Shown piece by piece: positions 20,014-35,938 of a stretch of 43,326 nucleotides of DNA. Made by a program: the position numbers and the translations under genes. The stretch's first letter is position 1; every line of letters starts with the position of its first letter. The DNA lies in contig PWSY01000074.1 of assembly GCA_003563055.1 (NCBI GenBank), positions 1 to 43,326 of the forward strand, read 5' to 3'. A model generated the notes under the pieces. That model did not search any database. It was not told the DNA's origin and saw nothing but the letters and a program-made list of their open reading frames with translations. Source of the stretch: Anaerolineaceae bacterium (GTDB taxonomy: Bacteria; Chloroflexota; Anaerolineae; Anaerolineales; Anaerolineaceae).

Positions 20014-20311
20014 ATTTTTCCTTTCATTTATTTGATATTGTTAAATTTATTAACCTTATTCAGCCTAACTTTATGCGATATTTACCGTGGCAAAGAATGA
20101 ATCCGGTTGGTTTAAGGTTTAATTTTTTTCGAACATTGTTGGATTAATGGTTGGGTATAGGGTCGATGGCATTGTTTTTGAACATGTTATACTTAATGCA
20201 TGAATTGATTTACCTGGTCTTCCTTTTTTCATCTCTTTTATCGGGTGTTGCAAACATATTGATAGATGTAAATCCTGTTCGCTAAAAAAACTAACCAGAA
20301 ACCCCAAATTG

Positions 20312-23300
20312 ATGTCGATTCAAAATTTAATCATTCTCAGCCAAGTCCAACCACCTGCGCAACGAAATAGGGTGCTGATTCGTGAACGGGTGATGAATAA
20401 ATTGCTGCCAGCGACGGATTGCCCGGTCACAATCCTTGAGGCAGGGACAGGATATGGGAAGAGCACCTCGATTATTTCTTTTATCAATCGCCTTTCCCTA
20501 CCGGTATTCTGGTATACCATCACAGGGTCTGATCGTGATCCGACACTGTTTCTGGCAAAATTATTTACAGCTTTTAATCAACAAGGCAGTAAGGCGGGAG
20601 AAGAGGCCCTGCAAATATTAGATCTGCCAGAATCGACACACCAAGAGGCAATGATTGCCTTCCTGAATGGCATTGCGACCCACCTTGAACAAGATTCTAT
20701 TTTTGTTCTGGATGATTTTCATCGGATCAGTGATGTTGAAGAGATTGTTGATAATATCGATTGGATGATTGAAAACCTGCCGCAGCAACTCCATGTGATC
20801 ATTATCACGCGACACAAGCTTGCATTTTCATCCATTAGCAAATGGCGGGTTAAAAACTGTATTTGCGAAATTGGCACGGAGGATCTGTCTTTTACCAATG
20901 AAGAGATTGGCCAGTTGTTTGAGGATCAATACGGTATAAAGTTGACGTCAGATGAAATATCTCGACTGCAAGAAAAAACGGAGGGATGGGCCATAGGATT
21001 GCAAGTTGTCTGGCAAACCTTGCAAAACAACCCTGATAAGCAGATTAACGATGTATTGGAAGAAAACAGCGTATCGCAATTGGCTTTGTTTGATTATCTT
21101 GCTGATGAGGTGATGAGTCATCTTACACCTGAGCTACAGGCTTTTTTACTTCACACATCCATCTTATCAAGGATAAATAGTGCAACCTGTGATTTTCTTT
21201 TAAATTGTGAAAACAGCGAAGACCTGATCCAATATCTTCACAAAGCCGGGCTTTTCCTTGATGAATTACAGCCAGGCGTATTCCGCTACCATCAGTTATT
21301 TCGAGAGTTCTTATTGAATCGTCTGGCAGAACAGCTTGAGTCTAAAGATATCACCGCCCTGCACCAAAAAATAGCCAGTTATTACCATGCCCATGAATAT
21401 TGGGAAGAGGCGATTTATCACTTATTGGCCGCAGAAGATTTCCACCTGTTAAATCAAATTCTTGAAAATATTGGTGAAGCGTTTATTCAAGAAGGACGTC
21501 ATGAAACAATACATTATTGGATTGATTCCTTTCCTGAAAAATTATTAATAGAATTTCCGTTTGTCTCTTATCTGTCTGGAGAGATCAATCGGTATTTAGG
21601 GCAGTTCGAAGAAGCTTTGGAGCATTACCACACTGCTGAACGTCTCTACCGAAGAAGAGCGAACCCATGGGGGATCTCCATGGCATTACGAGGGCAGGCG
21701 CGTGTCTTTTTGGATACTATTCGGCCCAATAATGCTGATCAACTCTTGCAAGATGCATTAAAGCTTCTTAACCCGGCAGAGACACCGAAAGAGGTGGCTG
21801 ATTTATTGGTGCTCACTGCAGAAAATCAACTCAATCTTGGTAACCCCAAAAGCGCTGAGAGACTATTAATTCAAGCGAAAAACTTGAGGCCTGAACTGGA
21901 TATGGAAACCGATTTTATCCAGGCTCGGATTTTCTTGCGAACAGGTCGGTTAAATGAAGGCATCGATTTACTCCAAACCCGTGATGCCACACGCCCGGTA
22001 ACGCCAATGGGAAGGCCCCAGCGATTTCATCGAGAAAGTTCTCTCCTTCTGTCTCTGTTTTATGCGATCATGGGTGAAACTGAACTTTGTGAACAGTATG
22101 CGCTTAAAGGGATTGAGGTTGGCAAAGCATTGCAGTCGGTTTTTGTTCAATCGGTAGGATATATGCGGCTTGGCCACGCCCTGCAACTACACTCTCAGAG
22201 CCCTTTTTTCAGCGAAGGTTTTACTGAAGCACTTGATTATTATCAGGAATCAATCGAGAAAATTGATGTGACCCGCATTCATGTTGAACCACTATGGGGC
22301 ATTTGTCGTGCATTGGGTTTTTCCCAAAGAATCATAGAGGCAGAAAATCGGGCTCTTGAAGGACTGGATATCGCCAAACGGGCGGGGGATGAGTGGATAA
22401 GTATTCTCATTCAGCTTTCATTGGGCGCTGGCCTGGTTATAAACCGAGATTATGATAAATCACAGCAGTACCTGACCAACGCAGAAATCAGTTCAATAAA
22501 AGTAAATGACCCTTTTACATTGAGTGCAACAAGAATGTGGCTTGCCATCAGAGCCTGGAAGCAGGGTTTTCGCAACACAGCGCTTGGGTATTTAGAAAAA
22601 ATGCTGAGAATTGTTCGCGAAGAGAATTATTCATTTCTGCTGTCCAAAGAAACTTTAATGGGATTGAGTGACTCGGAAATGCTTTACCCACTACTGATTG
22701 CTGCTAAAGAAAATGGTATTGAAAATGATTTCATCACCAGGATCTTAAAAAAACATCAACTGGAAACTTGCAGTTATCACCCGGGTTTCACACTCTGGGT
22801 GCGCACATTTGGCAGTTTTAGAGTCTGGCGTGGTGATGAATTGATCAGGCCGGATGAGTGGAAACGTCAAAAAGCCCTTCAGATTTTTGAATTATTGGTA
22901 GCTAATCATGGAAAGTGGCTCCATCGTGATCAGATAATCAGCATGTTATGGTCGGAATCCCAGGCAGCTACAGGCGGTAATTATCTCAAGGTTGTTTTCA
23001 ATGCACTCAACCAGGTGCTTGAACCTGACCGACCTAAAGGAGAAAAACCATTTTTTATTGAGCGTTACCAGGATCGATTTCGCCTGAGCCCTAATGCAAA
23101 AATCCTGATCGATGCAGAGATGCTTGTTGAGCAAATTAAAAAAGGGTCTGTCCAGTCTTTAGAAAAAGCATTAAGGCTATACGAGGGGCGCTTTTTAGCG
23201 GGCAGTTATATGCAGGAATGGTTAACCGTTGAAGAACAATACTATCACCAGCAATTCCTGCTGGCAGCAAATAAGCTCTCGCAACATTATTATGATGAAG

Positions 23301-23542
23301 GAAATTACGAAAAAGCGCTCAATATATCCCACCAGGTTCTTGGCGAAGACACATTGGTTGAATCGGCTTACCGACTGCAAATGAAAATCTTTCATAAGCT
23401 GGGGCGTTATTCGATGGTCCGGTCAGTGTTTAAGACCTGTCAGGAAACCCTACAAAATCAAATCAGCAGTGAGGTCTCTCCGAAAATGGTTGACCTTTAT
23501 GAAAGATTGCTTAGAGAAGAAGAAAGCCACCACACAAGATAA
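20312..23542 (+). CDS. STAND ATPase transcription regulator with SARP-like C-terminus
   Basis: 1076 residues. N-terminal MalT-like STAND NTPase: Walker A AGTGYGKS (residues 44-51) and Walker B FVLDDFHRI (Asp134/Asp135), then winged-helix region YLADEVMSHLTPELQAFLL. The middle (about 380-800) is TPR repeats (for example FEEALEHYHTAERLYRR, GNPKSAERLLIQAK). The C-terminus has no LuxR helix-turn-helix as in MalT; it has an OmpR-type winged helix (about 832-925, TFGSFRVWRGDEL...RQKALQIFELL) plus a BTAD helical domain (about 930-1070), as in SARP activators. It should sense a ligand through the TPRs and activate transcription. ATG 20312 chosen over the preceding TTG. The cluster it precedes starts 119 nt downstream, behind an 11-bp-period operator. 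Confidence 0.9.
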   Translation: MSIQNLIILSQVQPPAQRNRVLIRERVMNKLLPATDCPVTILEAGTGYGKSTSIISFINRLSLPVFWYTITGSDRDPTLFLAKLFTAFNQQGSKAGEEALQILDLPESTHQEAMIAFLNGIATHLEQDSIFVLDDFHRISDVEEIVDNIDWMIENLPQQLHVIIITRHKLAFSSISKWRVKNCICEIGTEDLSFTNEEIGQLFEDQYGIKLTSDEISRLQEKTEGWAIGLQVVWQTLQNNPDKQINDVLEENSVSQLALFDYLADEVMSHLTPELQAFLLHTSILSRINSATCDFLLNCENSEDLIQYLHKAGLFLDELQPGVFRYHQLFREFLLNRLAEQLESKDITALHQKIASYYHAHEYWEEAIYHLLAAEDFHLLNQILENIGEAFIQEGRHETIHYWIDSFPEKLLIEFPFVSYLSGEINRYLGQFEEALEHYHTAERLYRRRANPWGISMALRGQARVFLDTIRPNNADQLLQDALKLLNPAETPKEVADLLVLTAENQLNLGNPKSAERLLIQAKNLRPELDMETDFIQARIFLRTGRLNEGIDLLQTRDATRPVTPMGRPQRFHRESSLLLSLFYAIMGETELCEQYALKGIEVGKALQSVFVQSVGYMRLGHALQLHSQSPFFSEGFTEALDYYQESIEKIDVTRIHVEPLWGICRALGFSQRIIEAENRALEGLDIAKRAGDEWISILIQLSLGAGLVINRDYDKSQQYLTNAEISSIKVNDPFTLSATRMWLAIRAWKQGFRNTALGYLEKMLRIVREENYSFLLSKETLMGLSDSEMLYPLLIAAKENGIENDFITRILKKHQLETCSYHPGFTLWVRTFGSFRVWRGDELIRPDEWKRQKALQIFELLVANHGKWLHRDQIISMLWSESQAATGGNYLKVVFNALNQVLEPDRPKGEKPFFIERYQDRFRLSPNAKILIDAEMLVEQIKKGSVQSLEKALRLYEGRFLAGSYMQEWLTVEEQYYHQQFLLAANKLSQHYYDEGNYEKALNISHQVLGEDTLVESAYRLQMKIFHKLGRYSMVRSVFKTCQETLQNQISSEVSPKMVDLYERLLREEESHHTR

Positions 23543-23548
23543 TTTAGT

Positions 23549-23577
23549 TTGTAACCCCTGTGTAACCTTGTTGTAAT
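23549..23577 (+). promoter_or_regulatory. Three direct repeats, 11-bp period: candidate SARP-type operator
   Basis: Heptamers TTGTAAC (23549-23555), GTGTAAC (23560-23566) and TTGTAAT (23571-23577) are spaced exactly 11 bp, one helix turn, with 4-bp gaps. SARP/BTAD regulators are known to bind direct heptamers with this period overlapping the -35 region. An extended -10 candidate TGTTATGCT (hexamer 23588-23593) begins 10 bp after the third repeat. The array is 7 bp after the regulator gene and 84 bp before the first enzyme gene. Confidence 0.6.
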
Positions 23578-23661
23578 CACATAATGTTATGCTTGAATGG
23601 TAAATAATTCGACTAGTTCTATGGACATGCTGTTCATTATAGCCATCCAAGGAGAATGAAA

Positions 23662-24426
23662 ATGCGATTAAGGGATAAGGTTTGTCTAATCACCGGGGGC
23701 GCGGCGGGGATTGGAAAAGCAACCGCTGAGAAGTTTGTCAGTGAAGGTGCTGTGGTTGCCCTGTGTGACGTCAATGACCAGCCAGGCCATGCACTGGTGA
23801 GAGAATTGGGTGAGACTGCAGCCTTTTACAAAGTTGACGTTACCAATCGAGAGGAAGTTCAGGGATGGGTGGATGAAATTGTTGAACAGCACGGCCGGGT
23901 TGATGTGCTCATCAATAATGCCGGAATCACCCGGGATGGGCTTTTTGTCAAATATAAAAACGGAGAAATAACCGGTCAAATGTCTGAATCCGACTTTGAC
24001 CTGGTGGTTAAAGTTAACCTGTATGGCGTTTTTAATTGTGCCCAGGCCGTTACACCACACATGATTAAACAAGGAGGAGGTGTCATTCTCAATGCTTCTT
24101 CAATTGTGGGCCTTTATGGAAATTTTGGGCAAACCAATTATGCTGCCACAAAATTTGGAGTCATTGGGATGACCAAGACTTGGGCGAGGGAGTTGGGGAA
24201 ATATGGTATCCGCGTGAATGTTGTCTGCCCGGGTTTCATTCTCACTGAGATGGTTCAAAAAATGCCCGAGAAAATTCTGGAAGGTCTAGCTGCAAAAACA
24301 CCACTGGGCCGTATGGGTAAGCCAATTGATATCGCCAATGTTTATTGCTGGCTGGCGAGTGAGGAAGCCGCCTATATTCATGGTGCGGAGATCAGTGTGG
24401 ATGGCGGCATGGTTTTAGGCACCTGA
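23662..24426 (+). CDS. Short-chain dehydrogenase (FabG/3-oxoacyl reductase-like)
   Basis: 254 residues. Classical SDR: NAD(P) site TGGAAGIGKA, NNAG, catalytic Ser147 (NASSIVG), Tyr160 and Lys164 (YAATK), PG motif VVCPGFILTEM, C-terminal HGAEISVDGGMVLGT. Acidic CDVND after the second strand suggests NAD preference. Likely reduces or oxidises a 3-oxo/3-hydroxyacyl-CoA or an alcohol/ketone substrate. Of two close ATGs, 23662 has AAGGAG at good distance (7 nt); 23656 is too close. First gene behind the candidate operator; next gene 47 nt downstream. Confidence 0.9.
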   Translation: MRLRDKVCLITGGAAGIGKATAEKFVSEGAVVALCDVNDQPGHALVRELGETAAFYKVDVTNREEVQGWVDEIVEQHGRVDVLINNAGITRDGLFVKYKNGEITGQMSESDFDLVVKVNLYGVFNCAQAVTPHMIKQGGGVILNASSIVGLYGNFGQTNYAATKFGVIGMTKTWARELGKYGIRVNVVCPGFILTEMVQKMPEKILEGLAAKTPLGRMGKPIDIANVYCWLASEEAAYIHGAEISVDGGMVLGT

Positions 24427-24473
24427 TCCTGAAGGTTTTGGATTACTGTTATTTGATCTGAAGGAGATGTTGA

Positions 24474-25481
24474 ATGAAACATTTTGGAACAATTATTGGT
24501 ACCGGGCGATATATCCCGGAAAATGAGATTACCAACGAAACATTTGCCAGTTGGATGGTTGAGGTCAGCCCGAACCTGGTAGAGGTTGTGGGGAAATTCG
24601 AGTCAAGCACCAACATTAAAACACGTTTTTACGCGCCGGATGATTGGGCAACCTCTGATCTGGCTGTTGAGGCAGGTAAAGCGGCTTTAGATGATGCTGG
24701 AATCACACCTGAGGATGTTGATCTCATTATCCTGGGTACTGATTCGCCCGATTACATCACACCTGCTAGTTCTGTTGTTGTACAGCACAAATTAGGGGCG
24801 GTAAAGGCCGGCACCTTTGATGTTGGCTGTGCATGCGCAAGTTTTCCTACCGGGTTGGCACTTGCTTCTGGCCTGATCAGCACCAACCCCAATCTCAAAA
24901 ACATATTGGTGATTGGTGCCTACATGATGCACAGACTTGCAGATGTGAAGCAAGATGTGATCAGCTTTTTCTATGGGGACGGGGCTGGGGCGGCTGTGAT
25001 GGTGCCAGCCAACAAACCCGGGTTTATCTCATCTGCTTTTTTTGCAGACGGCTCATACTATCCCAACTGGGGGATATATGCCGGCGGAACAGCAGAACCT
25101 GCCACCTGTGAAAATGTTCAGAGTGGAAAAACGAAGGTCAAATTGGTGACACCTTTTCCGCCCGAGGTCAATAATGTGGGCTGGCCGCAGCGCATTCGAG
25201 AGGTGGCAGAAAATGGTGGTTTTAAAATTGATGAAATTGACTTTGTGATCTTCACCCAGGTGCGTCTGAGCAGTATTGAATTGGTTATGTCAGAGATCGG
25301 GCTGCCCCTTGAAAAAGCTCACTGGATCATGGATAAATGGGGATACACCGGTTCAGCTTGTTTGCCAATTGCTTTTGATGATGCCAGAAAACTTGGAAAA
25401 ATCCAATCCGGTGATCTGGTTGTATTTGTGGGGTCAGGCGTTGGTTACAACCAGGCTGCCGTAGCTCTTCGGATGCCGTGA
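24474..25481 (+). CDS. KAS III-like condensing enzyme with altered active site
   Basis: 335 residues, thiolase fold of the FabH/HMG-CoA-synthase-like type. N-terminus FGTIIGTGRYIPENEITN is FabH-like. The nucleophile Cys121 lies in FDVGCACASF (FabH: FDxxAACxGF). The FabH His position (IPHQAN) reads IFTQVR, Thr261, and the Asn position (GNTSAA) reads GYTGSA, Tyr291; the 30-residue distance between them equals that in E. coli FabH (244/274), so the alignment is firm. It probably cannot run the normal malonyl decarboxylation. Located between an SDR and a CoA-transferase, with thiolase and DUF35 genes following. GAAGGAG precedes the ATG. Confidence 0.85.
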   Translation: MKHFGTIIGTGRYIPENEITNETFASWMVEVSPNLVEVVGKFESSTNIKTRFYAPDDWATSDLAVEAGKAALDDAGITPEDVDLIILGTDSPDYITPASSVVVQHKLGAVKAGTFDVGCACASFPTGLALASGLISTNPNLKNILVIGAYMMHRLADVKQDVISFFYGDGAGAAVMVPANKPGFISSAFFADGSYYPNWGIYAGGTAEPATCENVQSGKTKVKLVTPFPPEVNNVGWPQRIREVAENGGFKIDEIDFVIFTQVRLSSIELVMSEIGLPLEKAHWIMDKWGYTGSACLPIAFDDARKLGKIQSGDLVVFVGSGVGYNQAAVALRMP

Positions 25482-25500
25482 GATAAGAGAGGTCCTCAAT

Positions 25501-26817
25501 ATGGAAAAAGCGCGTACTTATCAGGAAAAAACGCTCACACTGGCTGAGGCCGCAGGTTTAATTAAATCTGGTCAAACGATTGGTGTAGGGATTGCCGGCG
25601 CAGAACCGGTTGGATTATTGACTGAAATGGCAAACCATGCCCTAAATCTGGAAAACGTTCATTTCTGGACCTGTCTGCCAATGCGCGTGTACGATGTTTT
25701 TGCCAGAAGTGAAATGGCAGGTCATGTATTCAATGAGAACTGGTTTTACAGTCCATCAGATCGACATGTGCATCATGAGGGGCGTGTGTCCTACATCCCT
25801 AACAACCTCCATCGGGCTGCGGCAGACAAACTCTATGCGACCAAGGGTAAACTGGATGTTTGTTTTGCGACAGCAACACCGCCCAATGCAGAAGGTTATA
25901 TGTCACTCTCTTTGGGCTTAATCGTCCAAAAGGATTTGCTTGAGGCAGCTGACTTAAAAATCGTAGAAATCAACCAGAACCTGCCCTGGACAAATGGGGA
26001 CACGCTGGTGCATGTGTCAGAGATTGATTATCTGGTAGAAAACCATGTCCCCCTGGTAGAGTTGCCTTCAGCCCCACCAAGTGACCTTGAAAAAGAAATT
26101 GGCGGCTATATCGCTGAATTGATTGAAGATGGGTCAACCCTTCAACTGGGTATAGGCGGCATCCCCAACGCAATCACAGCGTTTATTATGGACCGTCATG
26201 ATTTGGGAATTCATACCGAGATGATTGTGGATGGGATGGTTGACCTGGTAGAAGCGGGTGTGGTGACCAATCGCAAAAAGACGCTGCACCCCGGAAAAAT
26301 TATTGGTGCTTTTGCTTTAGGAACGCAAAAACTGTATGACTTTCTTGACCATAATGAGGATGTAGAACTGTATCGAGGCCGCTACACCAACGATCCGTAT
26401 GTCATTGCCAAGAATAACCAGATGATCAGCGTGAATACCGCTTTGCAGGTGGATATTCTCGGCCAGGTTTGTTCTCAAAGTATTGGGACACGTCAGTTTA
26501 GTGGCACAGGAGGTCAACTGGATACACACCGAGGGGCCCAAATGTCTTCGGGAGGGCGGGGGATTATTGCATTACGGTCGACAGCCAAAAATGGTTGCAT
26601 ATCTACAATCATCCCTACACTGGCACCCGGCGCAGCGGTAACAGTGCCCAGCCAGGATGTTGACACGATCATCACAGAATATGGCGTGGCGGAACTGCGT
26701 GGCCGCTGTGTCAAAGATCGCATGGAAGCTTTGGTTCGCATTGCGCATCCGAATTATCGGGATTGGATCAGAGACGAAGCGCAACGTTTGGGGATCGTCC
26801 CTAAAACTCAGTTTTAA
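25501..26817 (+). CDS. Family I CoA-transferase (acetyl-CoA hydrolase / 4-hydroxybutyrate CoA-transferase type)
   Basis: 438 residues. Moves CoA between acyl groups, usually from acetyl-CoA to a free acid. Parts seen: ATATPPNAEGYMSLSLG, LQLGIGGIPNAITAF, the catalytic glutamate in HTEM (Glu240) followed by VDGMVDL, and C-terminal ITEYGVAELRGR. Closest in look to AbfT/Cat2 enzymes. In this cluster it most likely activates the imported acid or recycles the product. 19 nt after the KAS III-like gene; next gene 15 nt on. Confidence 0.9.
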   Translation: MEKARTYQEKTLTLAEAAGLIKSGQTIGVGIAGAEPVGLLTEMANHALNLENVHFWTCLPMRVYDVFARSEMAGHVFNENWFYSPSDRHVHHEGRVSYIPNNLHRAAADKLYATKGKLDVCFATATPPNAEGYMSLSLGLIVQKDLLEAADLKIVEINQNLPWTNGDTLVHVSEIDYLVENHVPLVELPSAPPSDLEKEIGGYIAELIEDGSTLQLGIGGIPNAITAFIMDRHDLGIHTEMIVDGMVDLVEAGVVTNRKKTLHPGKIIGAFALGTQKLYDFLDHNEDVELYRGRYTNDPYVIAKNNQMISVNTALQVDILGQVCSQSIGTRQFSGTGGQLDTHRGAQMSSGGRGIIALRSTAKNGCISTIIPTLAPGAAVTVPSQDVDTIITEYGVAELRGRCVKDRMEALVRIAHPNYRDWIRDEAQRLGIVPKTQF

Positions 26818-26832
26818 TTCAGGAGAGCATTT

Positions 26833-27159
26833 ATGGAAAAAATTATTGGAAAGTGGATACAGGCCAAGGGACAGGCATACGAGGGGTTATGGTTTGAATT
26901 TAAGACAGATGGCACCTTCACTGCTGAATACCCGGCTATGGGCATTGTCTCAAATGGCACCTACCAAACGGATGGTAACAGGATAGTGATTAACCAGGAA
27001 GAACACACCTTGGGTCTGACTGGGCAATTTAAAGGGTTATATCAGATAGATGGTGAGACATTAAAAATGGCTTTATCCAGCGGCCCGGGTCAAAAACAGC
27101 CCGATGACCTTTCTGAGGCAAGATTGTACCTTAATTCAACATCATTAAAAGGTGAATAA
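26833..27159 (+). CDS. Small lipocalin-like beta-barrel protein
   Basis: 108 residues, no signal peptide. Begins IIGKWIQAKGQAYEGLWFEF and continues with alternating beta strands and turns (GTFTAEYPAM, SNGTYQTDGNRIVI, GLYQIDGETLKM), the pattern of short lipocalin-like domains that hold hydrophobic ligands. GAGAG lies before the ATG. Its stop TAA is one base from the thiolase ATG, and it carries the thiolase ribosome site at its end, so it is a full member of the operon. Ligand binding is inferred from fold resemblance only. Confidence 0.7.
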   Translation: MEKIIGKWIQAKGQAYEGLWFEFKTDGTFTAEYPAMGIVSNGTYQTDGNRIVINQEEHTLGLTGQFKGLYQIDGETLKMALSSGPGQKQPDDLSEARLYLNSTSLKGE

Positions 27160-27160
27160 T

Positions 27161-28426: not shown

Positions 28427-28427
28427 C

Positions 28428-28844
28428 ATGAGCAAATATGCAATGAACAGTAAGGATTTTTATCTTGCGCTAGCAGAGAAAAAATTAATCGGTTCGAGTT
28501 GTCAGGTTTGTGGATTGCAGCAGGTTCCACAACGAAAACTATGCCCGCAATGCCATGCAGAAAACACCCAGATTACCACCTTCTCAGGAAAGGGTACCCT
28601 GGCAGCCTTTACGGTTATCCGTGTACCACCAATGCACATGGCTAGAGCAGGATATGGTTCAAAAACGCCCTATTGTGTGGGTATTGTGGCATTGGAGGAA
28701 GGCCCCAGTGTTTCTGCACAAATTCTGAATGTTGATTTGGCTAATCCCGATGAGATTAGTATAGGGATGCCGCTAAGAATGACAACCATAAAGCGAGAAT
28801 CAGATCCAAGCGAGCGGACCTATCTCGCTTTTGAACCCTGTTGA
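28428..28844 (+). CDS. DUF35 Zn-ribbon/OB-fold protein (thiolase partner)
   Basis: 138 residues. N-terminal helix, rubredoxin-like zinc knuckle CQVCGLQQVPQRKLCPQC (two CxxC pairs), then an OB-fold (GKGTLAAFTVIRVPP, YCVGIVALEEGP). In archaeal thiolase/HMG-CoA synthase complexes and in PhlACB this protein bridges the enzymes and helps pass CoA esters between them. It starts one base after the thiolase stop, so both should be made together. Confidence 0.9.
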   Translation: MSKYAMNSKDFYLALAEKKLIGSSCQVCGLQQVPQRKLCPQCHAENTQITTFSGKGTLAAFTVIRVPPMHMARAGYGSKTPYCVGIVALEEGPSVSAQILNVDLANPDEISIGMPLRMTTIKRESDPSERTYLAFEPC

Positions 28845-28863
28845 TCAGTAAGGATTGAGCAAA

Positions 28864-29667
28864 ATGCCTCATGTAGAAGTGAATGACATCAACATTTACT
28901 ACGAACTTTCCGGCCCTAAAGGCGCGCCTGTTTTGGTGCTCTCAAATGGCATCATGATGAGTACAGCCAGCTGGGGATTTCAACAAGCTATACTGAGTGA
29001 ACATCTCCAGGTGCTTTTGTATGATTGTCGTGGTATGTGGCAGTCCGACCATCCTGAAGGCCCTTATTCGATGGAACAACATGCGGATGACCTGGCTGGT
29101 TTGCTGAGTGCTCTAGAAATTCAATCAGCGCATATTGGGGGCATCTCTTATGGGGCTGAAATCAGTATGGTGTTCGCCCTTAAATACCCGGCCAAAACCG
29201 AGTCTTTGATCGTGATTGATGGTGTCAGTGAGATCCACCCACTGCTAAAAGCGCAAACGGATCCGTGGTTAAAAGCCGCCGAACAAGAAGACCCTGAGCT
29301 GCTGTTGATGACTTCTTATCACCTGAATTTTTCGGGGGAGTGGATCAGGGCCAATCAACCCTTAATTGAGGCCTCCCTTGATCGCTTTGCAAAAATTGAC
29401 ATGAAGGCACTGGCGGATCTGATGAAAGCCTTTTTTGATCTCAATGTCACAGACAGGCTGGATGCGATCATTGTGCCAACCCTGATTGTCGTTGGTGAGA
29501 AAGACCTGATAAAAGGGGTGGACTATGCAGATATTATCGCAAGGCACATCAAAAACAGCGAGTTAGCCATTATCCCCGGGGCTGGACATGCCCTGTGTTT
29601 GGAAAAACCAGCTGTGCTAAATTCATTACTGCTGGGTTTTGTTCTAAAGAATGCCAATCAATCCTAA
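28864..29667 (+). CDS. Alpha/beta hydrolase (enol-lactonase/esterase-like)
   Basis: 267 residues. Catalytic triad visible: Ser95 in GGISYGAEIS, Asp214 in VGEKDLI, His242 in GAGHALCLEKP; oxyanion region LSNGIMMSTASW. Overall resembles 3-oxoadipate enol-lactonase/PcaD-like hydrolases, a broad group, so it may open a lactone or cleave an ester or C-C bond of the pathway substrate. ATG 28864 preferred (AAGGA 9 nt upstream) over a TTG at 28855. Intracellular. Last enzyme gene before the transporter genes. Confidence 0.87.
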   Translation: MPHVEVNDINIYYELSGPKGAPVLVLSNGIMMSTASWGFQQAILSEHLQVLLYDCRGMWQSDHPEGPYSMEQHADDLAGLLSALEIQSAHIGGISYGAEISMVFALKYPAKTESLIVIDGVSEIHPLLKAQTDPWLKAAEQEDPELLLMTSYHLNFSGEWIRANQPLIEASLDRFAKIDMKALADLMKAFFDLNVTDRLDAIIVPTLIVVGEKDLIKGVDYADIIARHIKNSELAIIPGAGHALCLEKPAVLNSLLLGFVLKNANQS

Positions 29668-29754
29668 ACCAAGGAGGTGAAAATACCCAAACTATTGCGC
29701 TTGAGATCACGTCCAATTAAACCGTTTATCAAAAAATAAGAAGGAGTAATTAGA

Positions 29755-31197
29755 ATGAAGAAACTATTGTCAATTTTAATGACCATCATGGTCATCATTC
29801 CATTGCTGCTCACATCGTGTGTTCAGCAAATTGAAGAGGTGCCAGAACCCCCGGCGGAAGAACCGGTGGTTGAGGAACCGGTAGTCGAAGAACCTGTGGT
29901 GGAAGAACCTGAGGTTGAAGAGCCCGAGATAGAAGAACCCGAAGTGGAAGAGCCAGAGGTCGAGGAGCCCGAGGTAGAAGAGCCGGCAGAATTAGGTCCA
30001 GTACTGAAAATTGGCCAAATTTCAATGCTCTCTGGTGCCATGGCATTGTATGGGGAACAGCAGGTGCGAGGTTTTCAACTGGGGCTGGAGTGGATGTCTG
30101 GTGGCGAAACTGATGAAAACGGGAATTACATTATCGCCAACAGGCCGATTGAAGTGATTACCAAGGATGATGAAGGTAATCCCGAAAAAGGTGTGGCCCT
30201 TGCTTTGGAGTTAATTGAAAAAGATGGGGTTGAACTTCTCCAGGGTCCTGTTGCCTCTGGTGTTGCGGCAGCATTGACAACCGTAGCTGAGCAGAATGAA
30301 ATCATCTTGATGGTTGACCCGGCTGCTTCTGCCTTTATCACCGGTGAATATTTTAACCCTTATGTATTCCGAACCTCCCGGACAAACTTTGATGACACAC
30401 TGGTGATCGCAAAATACCTGGTTGAAAATATCGGCCCCACATTTGCCCATATTGGGATTGACAATGCCTTTGGGCAGGGCTCGGGGATTGCTTTAGCCTA
30501 TTCGGTCGAACAATTTGGTGGTGAAGTGGTGGCTGATATTTATGCACCCTTTGATACCACCGATTTCACCCCATATATCCAGCAAGCCATGGACAGTGGT
30601 GCAGAAAATCTCTTCCTAACCTGGGCCGGTGTGGGTTATGTGACCCTCTTCCAGCAGTTGGATGACCTCGGCGCACTGGAAGAAATGACGGTTGCAACCG
30701 GTTACGGTGACAACGCCTCATTTGCAGCGGTTTATGGCGCAGCACTTGGTCAGATCGGTCTGAATGTTTACCACTATACCGTTCCAGAAACAGAAGTTAA
30801 TGATTGGCTGACTGAACGGCACTTTGAGCTTTATAATGAACCGCCAGACCTGTTCACTGCCGGCGGTATGGCTTCAGCTATCGCGTTGGCAACCGCTTTG
30901 GAAATGACCGGTGGCGACACCTCACCTGAGGCGATGATCCAGGCTTTAGAGGGCTTGAAATTTGAGGGGCCAAAGGGAACCTACTATATCCGCCCCGAAG
31001 ATCATGTTTGTGAACAACCAATGAACATTTTGCAATTGGTAAATCTTGAGCCTGACTTAACTGGCGATGGGATTAATACCTATGAGTTCTTCGAGACGGT
31101 CTATGTCTCTGCGTACGATGAACTAGGTGTTCCCTGCACGCTTGTGGGTGATTATGCAGATCGCTGTGGTGACCTGCCGACGATATCGAGCGACTAA
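29755..31197 (+). CDS. livJ: Liv-type ABC transporter substrate-binding lipoprotein
   Basis: 480 residues. Lipobox LLTSC with lipidated Cys22, then an extended Glu/Pro/Val spacer of pentapeptide repeats (residues about 35-74), then a type I periplasmic binding domain: LKIGQISMLSGAMALYGEQ, then EVITKDDEGNPEKG and AHIGIDNAFGQGSG. The family (HAAT) binds amino acids, but many members take aromatic acids, amides or short fatty acids; position after CoA enzymes suggests an organic acid. AGGAG precedes the ATG. A 10-bp hairpin and a MITE separate it from livG, which may let the binding protein be made in excess over the membrane parts. Confidence 0.9.
   Translation: MKKLLSILMTIMVIIPLLLTSCVQQIEEVPEPPAEEPVVEEPVVEEPVVEEPEVEEPEIEEPEVEEPEVEEPEVEEPAELGPVLKIGQISMLSGAMALYGEQQVRGFQLGLEWMSGGETDENGNYIIANRPIEVITKDDEGNPEKGVALALELIEKDGVELLQGPVASGVAAALTTVAEQNEIILMVDPAASAFITGEYFNPYVFRTSRTNFDDTLVIAKYLVENIGPTFAHIGIDNAFGQGSGIALAYSVEQFGGEVVADIYAPFDTTDFTPYIQQAMDSGAENLFLTWAGVGYVTLFQQLDDLGALEEMTVATGYGDNASFAAVYGAALGQIGLNVYHYTVPETEVNDWLTERHFELYNEPPDLFTAGGMASAIALATALEMTGGDTSPEAMIQALEGLKFEGPKGTYYIRPEDHVCEQPMNILQLVNLEPDLTGDGINTYEFFETVYVSAYDELGVPCTLVGDYADRCGDLPTISSD
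29857..29976 (+). repeat. Eight 15-bp units encoding the EEPVV-type spacer of LivJ
   Basis: Eight consecutive codon-level repeats of EEP[VE][VI] (three EEPVV, one EEPEV, one EEPEI, three EEPEV). Synonymous codons differ between units, so the protein repeat is maintained despite DNA drift. Forms a stiff, acidic tether between the lipid anchor and the binding domain. Confidence 0.9.
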
Positions 31198-31220
31198 AAC
31201 ACGAACCTTAACCTGATCAA

Positions 31221-31244
31221 GGGAGGGCCAACTCTGGCCCTCCC
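31221..31244 (+). terminator. Hairpin after livJ
   Basis: Perfect 10-bp stem GGGAGGGCCA/TGGCCCTCCC with loop ACTC, 23 nt after the livJ stop. No U-tract follows, so it more likely protects the livJ mRNA 3' end or slows transcription than fully terminates it. Confidence 0.6.
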
Positions 31245-31310
31245 TCCAGGAAAGACACTGATAATAAAATGATTGTGCCGAAAATAGCTTTTTTAAATTA
31301 TTGAATTATT

Positions 31311-31412
31311 GTAACTACTCAGCATGCGAGGGAATAGGGGGGTGTGGTGTGGCAGCTTCGCCGCCACACCACACCCCCCTCCCTTCAGAAGCAGGGCTGC
31401 CTGAGTAGTTAC
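31311..31412. mobile_element. MITE-like element, copy C, with 8-bp target duplication
   Basis: 102-bp element with perfect 12-bp terminal inverted repeats GTAACTACTCAG/CTGAGTAGTTAC and perfect 8-bp flanking direct repeats GAATTATT (31303-31310, 31413-31420). Inside is an almost uninterrupted palindrome, GGGGGGTGTGGTGTGGC paired with its complement around a 9-nt loop. It is inserted between livJ and livG, so its hairpin becomes part of the operon mRNA unless livG has its own promoter (a TATAAT is at 31442-31447). Confidence 0.92.
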
Positions 31413-31471
31413 GAATTATTTTATCTTGTGAAATCTATGTCTATAATGGCATTAATGATAAAGGGTAGCAT

Positions 31472-32242
31472 ATGACGAAAAACATCATTCTTAGAGCAGA
31501 AAACCTGAGAAAAGCTTTCGGTGGATTGATTGCCGTTGATGATGTCAGCATTGAAGTGCAGCAAAAAACAATGCATGCAATCATCGGCCCAAACGGTGCT
31601 GGTAAAACAACGTTATTTAATTTGTTGAGCGGCACAATGCCCCCTACGAAGGGCAAAGTGTATTACAAAGATAATGAAATTACCAGCCTACCACCCCATC
31701 AAAGAGCGCATTTAGGCATCGGGCGTTCCTTTCAGATCACCAATATTTTTCCAAACCTGACCGTATTAGAAAATGTACGTTTGGCCGCACAGGCACTCGG
31801 TGGCGATAATTTTCGTTTTCTCAGCCATGTAGGCACCTTTGGTGATTATATAGATAAAGCCATGGCGGTGCTGGCCCAGGTTGGCCTTGCGGGCCAGGAA
31901 AATGTTTACGCACGCAGCCTGGCCCATGGTGAAAAAAGAAAACTGGAACTGGGGATCATGCTGGCCTGTGACCCGGAGCTACTTTTATTCGATGAGCCAA
32001 CCGCCGGCATGTCTTCAGAGCAGGTTCCGGAATTAATTGAAATCATCAAGAAAGTGGTCAATAGGAAGGAAAGAACAGCCATCCTGGTTGAACACCGCAT
32101 GGACATGGTGATGAATATATCGGACTTTATTACCGTGATGAGCCAAGGGAATGTGATTGCGGAAGGAACCCCTCAAGAAATTGCCAATAACCAGCTGGTG
32201 CAAAAAGCTTATCTTGGTGATTTTTACGGAGAACTTTTATGA
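31472..32242 (+). CDS. livG: Liv-type ABC transporter ATPase
   Basis: 256 residues. Walker A GPNGAGKT (39-46), the LivG-specific insertion with GIGRSFQITNIFPNLTVLENV, signature LAHGEKRKLELG (a variant of LSYGQQR), Walker B LLLFDEPTAGM, H-loop EHRMDMV. C-terminal KAYLGDFYGE is typical of LivG. Works as a heterodimer with LivF. Its stop overlaps the livF ATG (ATGA). Confidence 0.93.
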   Translation: MTKNIILRAENLRKAFGGLIAVDDVSIEVQQKTMHAIIGPNGAGKTTLFNLLSGTMPPTKGKVYYKDNEITSLPPHQRAHLGIGRSFQITNIFPNLTVLENVRLAAQALGGDNFRFLSHVGTFGDYIDKAMAVLAQVGLAGQENVYARSLAHGEKRKLELGIMLACDPELLLFDEPTAGMSSEQVPELIEIIKKVVNRKERTAILVEHRMDMVMNISDFITVMSQGNVIAEGTPQEIANNQLVQKAYLGDFYGELL

Positions 32243-32991
32243 AACAAACGCAAAAGACGGATTTGATCCTGATTGTGGACCATATCCAAACCTATATAGA
32301 ACAGTTTCACATATTGCAAAATGTCAGCGTAGAAGTACCACGTAATTCAATCACAGTGATGCTGGGACGTAATGGCGCTGGTAAAACGACCACCTTGAAA
32401 TCCATCTTGGGCCTGACACCACCCCGAGAAGGGAAGATTATCTTTGATGGTATGGAGATTCAAGGAAAACGTGCCTTTAATATCGTTAACCTAGGGATTG
32501 GTTTTGTACCTGAACACCGTGCCATTTTTCGTCAACTTTCAGTGTTTGAGAATTTAAAACTGGCTGAAAGGACTAAGGGTGATCTTGACCGCAGTGGCGA
32601 TTTTATTTTTGATCTTTTTCCGGACCTGAAACGGTTAATAAAACTTCCCGGGAACCACCTTTCGGGTGGTCAACAGCAGATGCTAGCTGTCGCCCGGGCA
32701 TTGGTGCCGGAGAACAAACTCTTGTTAATCGATGAACCCAGTGAAGGGTTGGCCCCCATTTTGATTCAACAGATGATGGAAGCCATCCAAAAGCTGAGTG
32801 CCACGACAACCGTTCTGCTTGTTGAGCAGAATTTCATTATGGCCAGCCAACTGGCAGATTATTACTACATCATCGATGATGGAAAAAGTGTGCATAATGG
32901 CTTGATGAAAGACCTGATAAAAAATGAAGACCTTGTTAAGGAATACCTGGGGGCAACAGCGGGCAAAGTTGTCAGTGGAGGACTTCAATGA
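32239..32991 (+). CDS. livF: Liv-type ABC transporter ATPase
   Basis: 250 residues. Walker A GRNGAGKTT, LivF-typical GIGFVPEHRAIFRQLSVFENL, signature LSGGQQQMLAVARAL, Walker B LLIDEPSEGLAP, H-loop EQNF. An N-terminal stretch of about 10 residues (MKQTQKTDLI) precedes the ABC core. Overlaps livG and livH by 4 bases on either side, showing translational coupling. Confidence 0.93.
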   Translation: MKQTQKTDLILIVDHIQTYIEQFHILQNVSVEVPRNSITVMLGRNGAGKTTTLKSILGLTPPREGKIIFDGMEIQGKRAFNIVNLGIGFVPEHRAIFRQLSVFENLKLAERTKGDLDRSGDFIFDLFPDLKRLIKLPGNHLSGGQQQMLAVARALVPENKLLLIDEPSEGLAPILIQQMMEAIQKLSATTTVLLVEQNFIMASQLADYYYIIDDGKSVHNGLMKDLIKNEDLVKEYLGATAGKVVSGGLQ

Positions 32992-34484
32992 ACAATAATA
33001 ATAAACGGCGCACTTACTTTATCAGCGGCTTTTTTGTCTTGCTGCTGGTGTTGATCATTCTGGCGTGGCAAACCCTTGGAACCGCACCTTTTGTGCGAAC
33101 ATCCCTTTCAGGCCTGACTCTGGGGTCCCTCTTTTTTATGGTCGCGGCAGGGTTAACCTTGATTTTCGGTTTGATGGATGTATTAAATTTCGCCCATGGA
33201 TCGATGTTCATGCTTGGCGCTTACATGGGTTGGCAGTTTTATACCAATCCAACCTTCATTTTTGGTACAGCACCGCTCTGGCTGGCATTTGCCACGGGTG
33301 TTTTTCTGTTGCCAATCCTTAAACCCTTCTTAATCCGCCTTGAATTGAGTGAAAGCTGGCAGAATGCACTCCCCCGGCTAGCTTATGCCCTGATGGTTGT
33401 GTTTTTATTGATAGGTTTATTGGGGGTTAATATCATGGAAATGGCTGACACGGCCATGGTTGCCATTACGACCACTGTCGTTTCAAATCCGCTGAGTGAA
33501 ATTGGCCCACAAGAACCGATCTCTTCTTTCTGGATTCGACCATTAGCCCTCTTTCTGGCAGGTGCGATGACCGCTGTAGGCGCTTCAAAGCCAGGGAATA
33601 AAAAAGAATATGCGACAGATGAGAACCGTTCGAGAAATCTCATCATCCTGGCTTTTCTGATTATCACAACCATCATCCTGACCATTTTCAGGGAAGCATT
33701 ACCAGTTGCGGTTTTGTTGATGAATGGTAACTTGAGGTTTGCGCTGGCCATCCTGACCGCCGTTTTGTTTGGTTTTATGTTTGGTATGGTCATAGAAATC
33801 ACCTTTATCCGGCCACTGTATCAACGGCACATGTTTTCAATCCTGATGACTTTAGGCCTAGCCTTTGTCATCGGTGAAGTTGTGCACATACTGTGGTCAC
33901 CTCTTGCTTATCAGATGGTGCGGCCGCCATTTTTCGCCCAACCCGGGAAGGCTGAAACCGTTTGGGAATGGTTCCAAAATGGGAATGCAACCCTGAACGT
34001 ATTTGGCGTCACTTTTCCAACCTACCGCCTGTTCATTATTGTTTTAGGTCTTTTAATGTTTGTCTCCTTAATTATCCTGATGACTAAAACACGCATGGGG
34101 ATGATCATTCGGGCGGGTGTTCAGGATCCAGAAATGGTGGAAGCATTGGGGATCAATGTCAGGCAGGTGTTTACGCTTGTTTTTGCGTTGGGGGTGGCAA
34201 TGGCAGCTCTGGGTGGTATTGGTGCAGCACCGTTTATCCCAGTTCAGCCTTTGATGGGTGATCAATTCTTGATGCAAGGTTTTATCACAGTTGTGCTGGG
34301 TGGGATGGGCAGTTATATTGGTGCGTTTGTTGGCGCAATTACCTTGGGAATGGCCAGGGCTTTTGGAGATTATTTCGCGCTCCGGCTTTCGCTTTCACCT
34401 GCCATAGCTGAGGCATCGACTGTCATCATTATGATCATCGTGTTACTGGTTCGTCCATCGGGCCTGTTTGGCAAGAAGGAGTAA
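32988..34484 (+). CDS. livH: Liv-type permease, enlarged LivH
   Basis: 498 residues against about 300 in standard LivH. The N-terminal part (GLTLGSLFFMVAAGLTLIFGL, VLNFAHGSMFMLGAY) and the C-terminal half (MVIEITFIRPLYQRHMFSIL, GVQDPEMVEALGINV, VVLGGMGSYIGAFVGA, LLVRPSGLFGKKE) are normal LivH. Between them, about residues 90-255, is an insertion with roughly four extra hydrophobic segments (such as LAYALMVVFLLIGLLGVNIM and NLIILAFLIITTIIL). Forms the channel with LivM. Confidence 0.9.
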   Translation: MNNNNKRRTYFISGFFVLLLVLIILAWQTLGTAPFVRTSLSGLTLGSLFFMVAAGLTLIFGLMDVLNFAHGSMFMLGAYMGWQFYTNPTFIFGTAPLWLAFATGVFLLPILKPFLIRLELSESWQNALPRLAYALMVVFLLIGLLGVNIMEMADTAMVAITTTVVSNPLSEIGPQEPISSFWIRPLALFLAGAMTAVGASKPGNKKEYATDENRSRNLIILAFLIITTIILTIFREALPVAVLLMNGNLRFALAILTAVLFGFMFGMVIEITFIRPLYQRHMFSILMTLGLAFVIGEVVHILWSPLAYQMVRPPFFAQPGKAETVWEWFQNGNATLNVFGVTFPTYRLFIIVLGLLMFVSLIILMTKTRMGMIIRAGVQDPEMVEALGINVRQVFTLVFALGVAMAALGGIGAAPFIPVQPLMGDQFLMQGFITVVLGGMGSYIGAFVGAITLGMARAFGDYFALRLSLSPAIAEASTVIIMIIVLLVRPSGLFGKKE

Positions 34485-34487
34485 TTA

Positions 34488-35606
34488 ATGTCAGAGCATA
34501 AAATTCAACGTCGCATGACCATCCGAAACTTACTTCAGCGAGAAAAGGCGTTCCTGATATTCATTCTGCTCATGGTTGCTTTTCCATTTGTTTTAGGCAC
34601 AATTACCGGTACTGGTATCAACCACGGAGTAACAAAGTTCTGGCAAGGGCAGTTGATTGTCTTTTTTGTAATGGCTGTCGTTGCCATGAGTTATGATTTG
34701 TTAATTGGTTATTGTGGCATATTGTCCTTTGGACATGCTGCTTTTTTTGGGGCTGGGGCCTACACCACCGCGCTCTTATTCACCCATTGGGCACCGAGCT
34801 TTTCGACGAAGTATCGGATTTTCATACCTGGGGGTGGTGACATCACGGGGATCCTAATTTTTGCGTTTGTGATCCTGATGGCCGTTCTTGCCTCTGTCCT
34901 GGTTGGGCTGCTTTTCAGCGCAACTTCGGTCCGTCTAAAAGGGGCTTACTTTGCCATGTTAACCCTTGCTTTAGCTGAAGCGTTGCATATTCTTGCGAAG
35001 GCTTCTGACTTTATCAAGTGGACCGGGGCGGATGAGGGGCTCCATGGCGTTCCTGTGCCAGCCTGGATTAACCCTACCCAGTTCAGACCCCGCTTCTATT
35101 TTATAGCCCTTGTTTTTCTTTTCGTCAGCTATTTGTTTATTCGTCGCTTCACTAATTCTCCGGCTGGAAAGGTGATTATAGGCACCCGTGAAAATGAAGA
35201 ACGCGTGCGGATGATTGGGTATAATCCCGTAACTTACCGGACACTCACTTTTGTGGTTTCAGCTATCTTTGCAGGTCTTGCAGGGGCAATGTTTTCGATG
35301 TGGAACATGAGTGCCACCCATTCCATGACCTCAACCGTCATTACGGTCAACGCGTTGATCATGGTTATCCTGGGGGGTATGGGAACACTGGTGGGTGGGA
35401 TCGTCGGCGCAGGACTCCTGCAGGCATTCAGCCATTTCTTTTATGATTGGTTTGGCCCACGCTGGCCACTGATGTTCGGCTTGATTTTTATCATCAGTGT
35501 GTTGTTCTTCCCCTATGGGATTGTTGGCACATGGCGGTTAAAGCGGCTGCAGATTAAAGAGGGGTGGGCACGTTTGATCGCACTCCTGGCTGTAAAAAAG
35601 GAATGA
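34488..35606 (+). CDS. livM: Liv-type permease LivM
   Basis: 372 residues with about ten membrane helices. LivM marks: AMSYDLLIGYCGILSFGHAAFFGAGAY (in part), LKGAYFAMLTLALAEAL, RENEERVRMIGYN (EAA-like loop), VILGGMGTLVGGIVGAG, FFPYGIVGTWR. N-terminal basic tail of about 25 residues. Starts 3 nt after livH; a strong hairpin (35658-35693) follows 52 nt after its stop and ends the operon. Confidence 0.93.
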   Translation: MSEHKIQRRMTIRNLLQREKAFLIFILLMVAFPFVLGTITGTGINHGVTKFWQGQLIVFFVMAVVAMSYDLLIGYCGILSFGHAAFFGAGAYTTALLFTHWAPSFSTKYRIFIPGGGDITGILIFAFVILMAVLASVLVGLLFSATSVRLKGAYFAMLTLALAEALHILAKASDFIKWTGADEGLHGVPVPAWINPTQFRPRFYFIALVFLFVSYLFIRRFTNSPAGKVIIGTRENEERVRMIGYNPVTYRTLTFVVSAIFAGLAGAMFSMWNMSATHSMTSTVITVNALIMVILGGMGTLVGGIVGAGLLQAFSHFFYDWFGPRWPLMFGLIFIISVLFFPYGIVGTWRLKRLQIKEGWARLIALLAVKKE

Positions 35607-35859: not shown

Positions 35860-35938
35860 GACAACTTGCGCTTCGCGCCAGTTTGCGCGTTTAAGTACAA
35901 AAAATTTATGTCAATTCCCGGCAACCCAGGAGTTTTGC

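Follow-up and report, generated by a model that had tools for sequence, protein, structure and literature searches.

We examined what a run of genes on one strand of an Anaerolineaceae contig encodes, and which reaction its KAS III-like enzyme (KAS) may carry out. The window is the whole stretch of DNA analysed, 43,326 nucleotides. In the initial annotation the run was described as an uptake and CoA-processing system in which KAS, a thiolase, and a DUF35 protein form a functional unit resembling archaeal thiolase/HMG-CoA synthase (HMGCS) complexes and the PhlACB acyltransferase.

Layout and conservation of the operon

The gene set and the single strand were confirmed: 13 genes, all on the + strand, occupy positions 20309-35606 of the window, with families assigned by Pfam and NCBIfam profiles (Table 1). 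The intergenic distances, in gene order, are 113, 47, 19, 15, -8, 1, 10, 87, 274, -4, -4, and 3 bases; the earlier wording of "gaps of a few bases" suits most of them but not others (e.g., 113, 87, and 274 bases).

Table 1. Genes and repeat element of the operon (window positions)
Feature	Position	Strand	Remarks
MalT-like AAA/TPR regulator, C-terminal BTAD domain (SARP-like)	20309..23542	+	in-frame ATG at 20312
SDR oxidoreductase (FabG-like)	23656..24426	+	Ser149-Tyr162-Lys166 present
KAS III-like protein, CTY type, hallmark enzyme	24474..25481	+	Cys121, Thr261, Tyr291
Family I CoA-transferase, 4-hydroxybutyrate-CoA-transferase-like	25501..26817	+	Glu240 present
DUF5640-like small beta-barrel (lipocalin-like), optional	26833..27159	+	Pfam 25.6 bits
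SCP2-type thiolase (PRK06064 family), optional	27152..28426	+	Cys96, His320, His370 present
DUF35 protein, thiolase partner, optional	28428..28844	+	Zn ribbon CxxC...CxxC (zf-ChsH2) + OB fold
Alpha/beta hydrolase (esterase/3-oxoadipate-enol-lactonase-like)	28855..29667	+	Ser98-Asp217-His245
Liv/HAAT-type substrate-binding lipoprotein (importer type A)	29755..31197	+	family profile
Dispersed palindromic repeat, gap between binding-protein and ATPase genes	31308..31415		hairpin, z = -8.7
Liv-type ATPase (LivG-like)	31472..32242	+	family profile
Liv-type ATPase, second	32239..32991	+	family profile
Liv-type permease 1	32988..34484	+	family profile
Liv-type permease 2	34488..35606	+	family profile

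The regulator contains Pfam BTAD (51 bits), AAA_22, and TPR domains and reached 250 bits with the MalT-like model, far under its cut-off of 537. The SDR retains its Ser, Tyr, and Lys in 56/56 aligned rows, and the hydrolase its triad in 53/53. Glu240 of the CoA-transferase, which we take to be the catalytic Glu of Family I CoA-transferases, is found in 48/48 rows; at 293.9 bits against a TIGR03948 cut-off of 674.8, the enzyme falls well short of the named butyryl-CoA:acetate activity. The DUF5640-like protein lies slightly under the Pfam threshold (28.5 bits), and AlphaFold models it (pLDDT 92) as a small beta-barrel; its top PDB hits by Foldseek are lipocalin-like and fatty-acid-binding proteins, all weak matches (E >= 5.8e-3). 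One binding protein, two ATPases, and two permeases of the family make up a Liv/HAAT importer. The binding protein scored 45 bits with the branched-chain model NF011933 (cut-off 477), and no ligand was seen for the importer's closest solved relatives. The 274-base gap harbours a palindromic repeat of ∼105 bases that is dispersed over at least 40 places in the same genome (hairpin z-score from the fold of 31285-31440); a search of the 96 loci L033-L128 at E <= 1e-5 gave no copy.

As far as their contigs extend, 46 other Chloroflexota loci preserve the order SDR-KAS-CoA-transferase-(...)-hydrolase-Liv importer, so chance can be excluded. Synteny is thus not limited to this genome, and the earlier proposal of a conserved uptake-plus-CoA operon was borne out. 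Counting only those of the 46 loci with room for the gene on the contig, the SDR gene lies immediately upstream of KAS in 43/43, and the CoA-transferase (43/43), hydrolase (33/33), binding protein of type A or B (30/30), LivG-like ATPase (30/30), and second ATPase (29/29) are always present. The MalT-like regulator (22/33), the DUF5640-like gene (35/42), the thiolase (28/34), and DUF35 (27/33) are found less regularly, and the six loci lacking DUF35 are the same six that lack the thiolase. We concluded that SDR, KAS, CoA-transferase, hydrolase, binding protein, and ATPases are the fixed core and that the thiolase-DUF35 pair is optional. The two importers, types A and B, are different and are exchanged at sharp borders within near-identical operons. 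Over 13 hand-picked type-A relatives, KAS (mean identity 77%) is among the best conserved operon proteins, together with the SDR (76%), binding protein (79%), and second ATPase (78%). KAS was not found in 43 of the 61 genomes of the host family (E <= 1e-20) and is therefore not a housekeeping enzyme.

The thiolase and DUF35 genes

The thiolase exceeded the cut-off of NF004720 (460 against 420 bits) and has 7YVY and 6ESQ as its closest solved structures; the best solved match of DUF35 is 6ESQ chain E. An SCP2-type thiolase with a DUF35 partner is therefore present as in the archaeal complex 6ESQ: both subunits are homologous, the catalytic residues of the thiolase are retained, and this part of the proposed resemblance stood. 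The third subunit did not fit. It is HMGCS in the archaeal complex and the HMGCS-like PhlA in PhlACB, according to PMC6392133, and KAS is neither (see below).

That KAS would join the pair as third subunit of one such complex appears quite improbable, even with 6ESQ among the best solved matches of both partners and the three genes lying within 4.4 kb. The pair is missing from six operons with room for it, and KAS and the other core genes stay; in four of these genomes (MAGs, in which some of the loss may be incompleteness) no orthologous thiolase was found elsewhere. The trio is therefore not the core, and the claim of a functional unit was not upheld. Moreover, in the solved entry 6OK1 a DUF35 protein (ChsH2) pairs with a thiolase-like protein, presumably with no KAS in that entry. 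Among 34 non-Chloroflexota loci with this type of KAS, some of them on short stretches, none has DUF35 and two have a thiolase, at 28-30% only. PhlACB (PpATase) likewise combines a KAS-like protein, DUF35, and a thiolase-like protein. However, its KAS-like subunit PhlA, which is required with the other two, has no Cys and is nearest to the archaeal HMGCS subunit (38.5%; PMC6392133), whereas KAS keeps the Cys, is of a different type, and persists where the thiolase is missing.

The benzoylsuccinyl-CoA thiolase BbsAB is another two-part thiolase with DUF35, and SDR and CoA-transferase genes adjoin it in the Bbs operon. The operon proteins are far under the BbsA and BbsB cut-offs (31.5 against 250 and 149.2 against 750 bits), and the Bbs CoA-transferase belongs to a different family.

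The pair could also complete a 3-hydroxybutyrate/ketone-body route, in which the hydrolase opens esters, the SDR forms acetoacetate, the CoA-transferase forms acetoacetyl-CoA, and thiolase-DUF35 yields acetyl-CoA, with KAS as an accessory. On paper this route is complete, with intact residues in SDR, CoA-transferase, and thiolase. Furthermore, the PHB degrader Paucimonas lemoignei is among the KAS relatives and encodes both subunits of a 3-oxoacid CoA-transferase, each over its cut-off, 136 bases from KAS on the other strand. We nevertheless consider this reading unlikely: operons can do without its thiolase step but not without KAS, and the SDR, though under both cut-offs, scores as FabG-like (278.6 bits, cut-off 297.75) rather than as 3-hydroxybutyrate dehydrogenase (185 bits, cut-off 258).

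Active site of the KAS III-like enzyme

The AlphaFold model of KAS (pLDDT 92) has the KAS III fold: all 50 Foldseek matches listed are of KAS III type, with TM-scores of 0.81-0.92 and identities of about 23-31%. In a profile search against PDB the best 20 matches were all KAS III/FabH (top score 210 bits), and no HMGCS or PhlA chain was found among 60 of the 84 matches. KAS scored 37.5 bits with the archaeal HMGCS model TIGR00748 (NCBIfam; cut-off 353.35) and 55.7 with PRK04262 (cut-off 244). By sequence, KAS is FabH-like and not HMGCS- or PhlA-like. It also stays below the FabH cut-offs (TIGR00747, 169.9 against 292.1 bits; PRK09352, 192.1 against 249 bits).

FabH and KAS thus have the fold and the acyl-carrying Cys in common, but the Cys-His-Asn triad of FabH is not conserved. 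Cys121 is retained in 96/96 aligned KAS rows. The FabH His position (Thr261) is Thr in 93/96, Ser in two (L083 and L111), and Asn in the distant L017, with His in none, and the FabH Asn position (Tyr291) is Tyr in 96/96. In a control set, 14/14 FabH proteins retained both His and Asn. Distant members (44% identity) group with the remainder at a support of only 94/97. This remodelled active site had been missed in the initial annotation.

The replacements occur in Chloroflexota, Acidobacteriota, Pseudomonadota, and Myxococcota. In FabH the Cys carries the acyl group and His and Asn serve the decarboxylation step, according to PMC7645780. Identical replacements in several phyla point to a KAS reaction not yet described, judging from the aligned residues. 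With two of the three catalytic residues replaced, KAS might instead be inactive and serve the SDR or CoA-transferase as a scaffold or a CoA-binding regulatory subunit; PhlA is a precedent for a KAS-like partner that lacks catalytic residues (PMC6392133). Decay is, however, hard to reconcile with a near-invariant signature in an operon whose partner enzymes retain their catalytic residues, and since Cys121 is kept throughout, new chemistry suits the data better than loss of function, which we regard as improbable.

Related clusters and a proposed function

Importers of several unrelated types, and likewise CoA-activating enzymes, recur beside the same type of KAS. Loci L115 and L117, from other families of the class, have the order regulator-KAS-ligase-hydrolase-SDR-ligase-hydrolase-Liv. 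In acidobacterial clusters the importers differ and an acyl-CoA ligase is usually found with KAS, e.g., TetR-TonB receptor-SDR-KAS-hydrolase-ligase-hydrolase-Na+/solute symporter (L111). A Holophagaceae MAG (L092) has KAS-B-KAS-porin-Liv importer, close to hydrolases and to a CoA-transferase on the opposite strand, and a Rhodocyclaceae MAG (L103) has CoA-transferase, enoyl-CoA-hydratase-like protein, ligase, MaoC, KAS-B, and KAS. The 3-oxoacid CoA-transferase of Paucimonas (L086) described above is a further case. In several Pseudomonadota and Myxococcota loci only a hydrolase or no recognised partner accompanies KAS in the stretch seen, so that not every locus shows the catabolic setting.

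The acidobacterial set of KAS, alpha/beta hydrolase, SDR, and AMP-ligase matches the make-up of OleABCD, and SARP-like regulators, one of which is present here, occur in antibiotic clusters. The operon could thus make an unusual fatty acid, a polyketide, or an OleABCD-like beta-lactone or olefin from an imported precursor. We think this very doubtful: KAS lacks the condensing His and Asn and scored 95 bits with PRK09258 (cut-off 285), which we take to be the OleA-type family; genes dedicated to uptake (TonB, porin, symporter, or Liv) are present; the window version uses a CoA-transferase; and no carrier-protein domain was found in the 13 window proteins scanned.

With moderate confidence, we favour an accessory catabolic uptake operon whose KAS forms an acyl-enzyme but does not perform decarboxylative condensation, the acyl group being moved or thiolytically released. 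The Liv-type ABC importer would bring in a small carboxylate, or an ester or lactone that the hydrolase would open; the CoA-transferase (elsewhere an acyl-CoA ligase) would convert the acid to its CoA thioester, and the SDR would interconvert 3-hydroxy and 3-oxo forms. KAS would then load the acyl group on Cys121 and pass it to CoA or another acceptor, probably building no chain, since the His and Asn needed for decarboxylative condensation are missing. Most likely Tyr291 would act as acid/base in a thiolytic (retro-Claisen) cleavage, a function for which no KAS precedent was found in the search made. Where present, thiolase-DUF35 may perform a final, separable thiolysis (e.g., of acetoacetyl-CoA), and MaoC may add a hydration step in some hosts. 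We infer the catabolic direction and the order of reactions, as well as the KAS reaction. More tentatively, the CTY type might be an undescribed catabolic class of KAS III-fold acyltransferases, in which Cys-Thr-Tyr replaces Cys-His-Asn for C-C cleavage or acyl transfer on an imported substrate. It would extend over at least four phyla and lie, in Chloroflexota and Acidobacteriota, in modular uptake operons with interchangeable importer and CoA-activating enzyme.

A neighbourhood of KAS, thiolase, and DUF35 need not mean PhlACB or an archaeal mevalonate complex. The operon offers a handle on this enzyme: a short protein whose signature hardly varies, a binding protein of its own, and natural thiolase-less variants. 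If the KAS reaction is as it seems, a fixed change of two residues has diverted a chain-building fold to breakdown or acyl transfer, and this change would span Acidobacteriota, Pseudomonadota, and Myxococcota as well as uncultured Chloroflexota.

Gene content and conserved order of the operon

The operon was annotated with Pfam and NCBIfam scans (table below). The initial annotation had described a run of genes on one strand, and these scans bore it out. The name butyryl-CoA:acetate CoA-transferase for the operon's CoA-transferase was ruled out by the NCBIfam scan, on which an OleABCD identity was also rejected. The stretch that follows the operon does not contain rpoC, which was found on another contig of the same genome (G000:C129). 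The palindromic repeat within the operon occurs at no fewer than 40 places in its own genome (40 of 114 candidates scored) and had no match in the 96 loci retrieved for comparison (L033-L128).

Features of the operon, its surroundings and the exchanged importer cassettes (window positions unless a locus is named)
Feature	Position	Strand	Basis or remark
13-gene operon	20309-35606	+	gaps mostly small
MalT-like ATPase, TPR and C-terminal BTAD domain (SARP-like regulator)		+	Pfam/NCBIfam scans
SDR		+	Pfam/NCBIfam scans
KAS III-like protein		+	Pfam/NCBIfam scans
4-hydroxybutyrate-CoA-transferase-like protein		+	Pfam/NCBIfam scans
Small DUF5640-like protein		+	Pfam/NCBIfam scans
SCP2-type thiolase		+	Pfam/NCBIfam scans
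DUF35 protein		+	Pfam/NCBIfam scans
Alpha/beta hydrolase		+	Pfam/NCBIfam scans
Liv-type importer, five proteins		+	Pfam/NCBIfam scans
Palindromic repeat, ~105 bases	31308-31415		terminal inverted repeats; between binding-protein and ATPase genes
TPP riboswitch	19570-19679	-	precedes - strand genes for a thiamine pyrophosphokinase and an ABC importer
rpoB, then rpsG and fusA	35831-43164		rpoB, at 35831, follows the operon
142-aa ORF	40035-40463		between genes of the rpoB/rpsG/fusA stretch
Exchanged importer cassette, genome of L050	L124:1541-7331		
Exchanged importer cassette, genome of L075	L125:1528-7180		

A single scan of GTDB genome contigs with the KAS protein gave 100 loci, and the 80 best were retained; the titles of 46 of these 80 (L033-L077, L089) place them in Chloroflexota (as Anaerolineaceae, as Anaerolineae or simply as Chloroflexi). 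Each gene was counted over the loci whose contig reaches far enough, loci with too short a contig being left out; in L053 and L063 the KAS gene had been missed by the ORF caller and was found by tblastn. The SDR gene lies immediately 5' of KAS and the CoA-transferase gene immediately 3' of it in 43/43 loci each. The hydrolase gene follows further on in 33/33 loci. For hydrolase c13, the matches in this synteny analysis contain cross-hits at 24-26%, and c13 is at 58% or more in 13 loci. The importer's binding protein (30/30) and ATPases (30/30 and 29/29) are equally constant; DUF5640 (35/42), the regulator (22/33), thiolase (28/34) and DUF35 (27/33) are present in most loci. The order kept in the 46 Chloroflexota loci strengthens the earlier idea of an uptake-and-CoA-processing system.

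The thiolase-DUF35 pair is absent from six operons (L052, L053, L056, L057, L058, and L061), in which DUF5640 is followed directly by the hydrolase. Where the operon carries the thiolase its identity is 63-68%. The genomes of L052, L053, L056, and L061, which are MAGs and may be incomplete, showed no thiolase at the level of an orthologue when searched: two gave nothing at E <= 1e-30 and two gave only 34-43% paralogues. The operon is otherwise intact without the pair, which is thus an optional module, and we concluded that the core consists of KAS, SDR, CoA-transferase, hydrolase, and importer. The obligate KAS-thiolase-DUF35 trio of the initial annotation was rejected: to the six operons and the four genomes are added 34 non-Chloroflexota loci with a KAS of the window type, none of which shows DUF35 (thiolase in two, at 28-30%) in stretches that are in part short, and PDB profile matches place the KAS itself with FabH.

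Class and catalytic residues of the KAS III-like protein

The 20 best PDB matches of the KAS profile are KAS III/FabH, and no HMG-CoA synthase (HMGCS) or PhlA chain is found among the best 60 of 84. The AlphaFold model (pLDDT 92) also has FabH as its first structural match; in the NCBIfam scan the protein scores below both the FabH and the HMG-CoA synthase cut-offs. PhlA and the archaeal subunit matching it are HMGCS-type according to an excerpt of PMC6392133. The likeness to the archaeal thiolase/HMGCS complex and to PhlACB suggested earlier is therefore limited to the operon's thiolase and DUF35, for which solved-structure matches support it, and does not extend to the FabH-like KAS.

For residue comparison the window KAS and 95 relatives were aligned with 14 true Chloroflexota FabH and five PRK06840-type proteins (L003, the window's own locus, being left out). 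The FabH controls keep Cys, His, and Asn in 14/14. In the window group Cys121 is kept in 96/96, the FabH His position (residue 261) is Thr in 93, Ser in two and Asn in one, and the FabH Asn position (residue 291) is Tyr in 96/96; we refer to this type as CTY-KAS. For a tree of 69 rows, which carried a long-branch warning, the CTY rows were thinned to one in two and sequences shorter than 280 residues were dropped. A branch with 100/100 support sets the 44 closer CTY members sampled off from all other rows, FabH and PRK06840-type ones included; the branch grouping them with six distant members (∼44% identity) is supported at 94/97. A second KAS adjoins or lies near CTY-KAS in L088, L092, L101, L103, and L106. 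The one tested of these five is over the PRK06840 cut-off; all five have His at the FabH Asn position, and their His position is hard to align.

The partner enzymes found in the fetched loci retain their catalytic residues: Cys and the first His of the thiolase in 37/37 rows (second His 36/37, one gap), Glu of the CoA-transferase in 48/48, Ser-Tyr-Lys of the SDR in 56/56, and the triad of the alpha/beta hydrolase in 53/53. The KAS active-site change is thus specific and not a result of decay. The Zn-ribbon cysteines of DUF35 are variable, since each of the four is kept in only 25/30 rows. In FabH the acyl group is borne by Cys, and decarboxylation depends on His and Asn (excerpt of PMC7645780). 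Given these roles, CTY-KAS should still form an acyl-enzyme yet not condense malonyl units.

Distribution and exchange of parts

Of 400 Chloroflexota genomes sampled, 16 (the window's own included) have a KAS match of at least 43% identity among the matches listed; the next listed are at 37% or less, and the 14 of these that were checked are FabH. Within the window's family the KAS gene is present in 17 of 61 genomes, once as two overlapping pieces on two contigs, and one further genome has only a 30% match. The remaining 43 gave no hit to KAS III at E <= 1e-20, and the fabF model TIGR03150 is over cut-off in 0/61 family genomes. On these two counts the reading of CTY-KAS as the housekeeping FabH was rejected; the gene is accessory in the Anaerolineaceae. 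The best matches of the fabF model sit inside long open frames of up to 2971 aa, a hint that the family has type I fatty acid synthases.

Two Liv-type importers, told apart by their binding protein, are found: the window type (A) in 26/46 Chloroflexota loci and type B in 9/46. The remaining 11 loci showed no binding protein, and each of them lacks the room needed to be counted. A binding protein of this group is single per genome in 12/12 tested (E <= 1e-30). Between L050 and L075 the proteins from regulator through hydrolase are 85-96% identical, whereas identity drops to 43% for the binding protein and to 36 and 40% for the permeases. The DNA identity of 87% extends until 75 bases into the binding-protein gene, the next ∼5.6 kb has only short 67-74% matches, and 84% identity resumes with the final 43 bases of the last permease gene, so both borders are sharp. 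It looks as if recombination within the cassette ends has replaced the importer as a whole.

Further families of the window's class carry runs of regulator-KAS-ligase-hydrolase-SDR-ligase-hydrolase-Liv (L115, L117) or variants of it (L113, L114, L116, and L119, the last with thiolase-DUF35), and the more distant Chloroflexota L118 and L120 have KAS, MaoC, hydrolase, a CoA-activating enzyme, and a Liv importer. The Acidobacteriota runs read TetR-TonB receptor-SDR-KAS-hydrolase-ligase-hydrolase-Na+/solute symporter, some with a PRK06840-type KAS. In L092 (Holophagaceae MAG) two KAS genes are followed by a porin and a Liv-type importer. In L103 (Rhodocyclaceae MAG) CoA-transferase, an enoyl-CoA-hydratase-like protein, ligase, and MaoC precede two KAS genes, and in L086 (Paucimonas lemoignei) the genes for the two subunits of a 3-oxoacid CoA-transferase (each over cut-off) lie on the opposite strand, 136 bases from KAS. 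Apart from these two CoA-transferases, a recurrent hydrolase and the family c17, CTY-KAS neighbors in Pseudomonadota and Myxococcota have little in common. The c17 protein, unnamed and of ∼215 aa, recurs in Pseudomonadota next to CTY-KAS, together with the hydrolase (L078, L081, L086, L091, L093, L098, L108); its L086 member has no Pfam match, and those of L086 and L091 have no NCBIfam match. L099, a MAG contig labeled Acidimicrobiia, carries a cluster of the acidobacterial kind that includes part of a TonB receptor, and in the tree it joins L101 of Acidobacteriota with 100/98 support. For these two reasons it was left out of the phylum count as probably misbinned; CTY-KAS is thus counted in four phyla, without Actinomycetota, for which L099 is the sole such contig.

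Proposed reactions and candidate ligands

The main reason for a catabolic reading is that four kinds of uptake genes and three kinds of CoA-activating enzyme stand beside one KAS type. The claim is limited by the many proteobacterial and myxococcal members that have the hydrolase alone or no recognized partner in the stretch seen. Content, order, residues, and optional parts of the operon were observed. In the pathway we propose, the importer would take up a carboxylate, which would receive CoA by transfer and undergo a redox step by the SDR; KAS would then carry out acyl transfer or thiolysis, and thiolase-DUF35, where present, might perform a final thiolysis. A thiolytic KAS is our best guess; we rate lower a KAS that only transfers acyl groups and one that is an inactive partner.

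The closest solved relatives of the binding protein are 3N0X and 3NND; no ligand was found for them, nor, in the open-licence PubMed Central literature, a paper on RPA4397, a tentative locus name among these relatives. Lower structure matches include 4EY3, 4F06, and 4EVS, presumably aromatic-acid-binding proteins of Rhodopseudomonas, and provide a lead for a candidate ligand. In the titles and abstract starts of the same literature we found no description of the operon or of the CTY-KAS type. Operons that combine uptake with CoA chemistry are already known; within the literature searched, the CTY-KAS core is what appears to be new.
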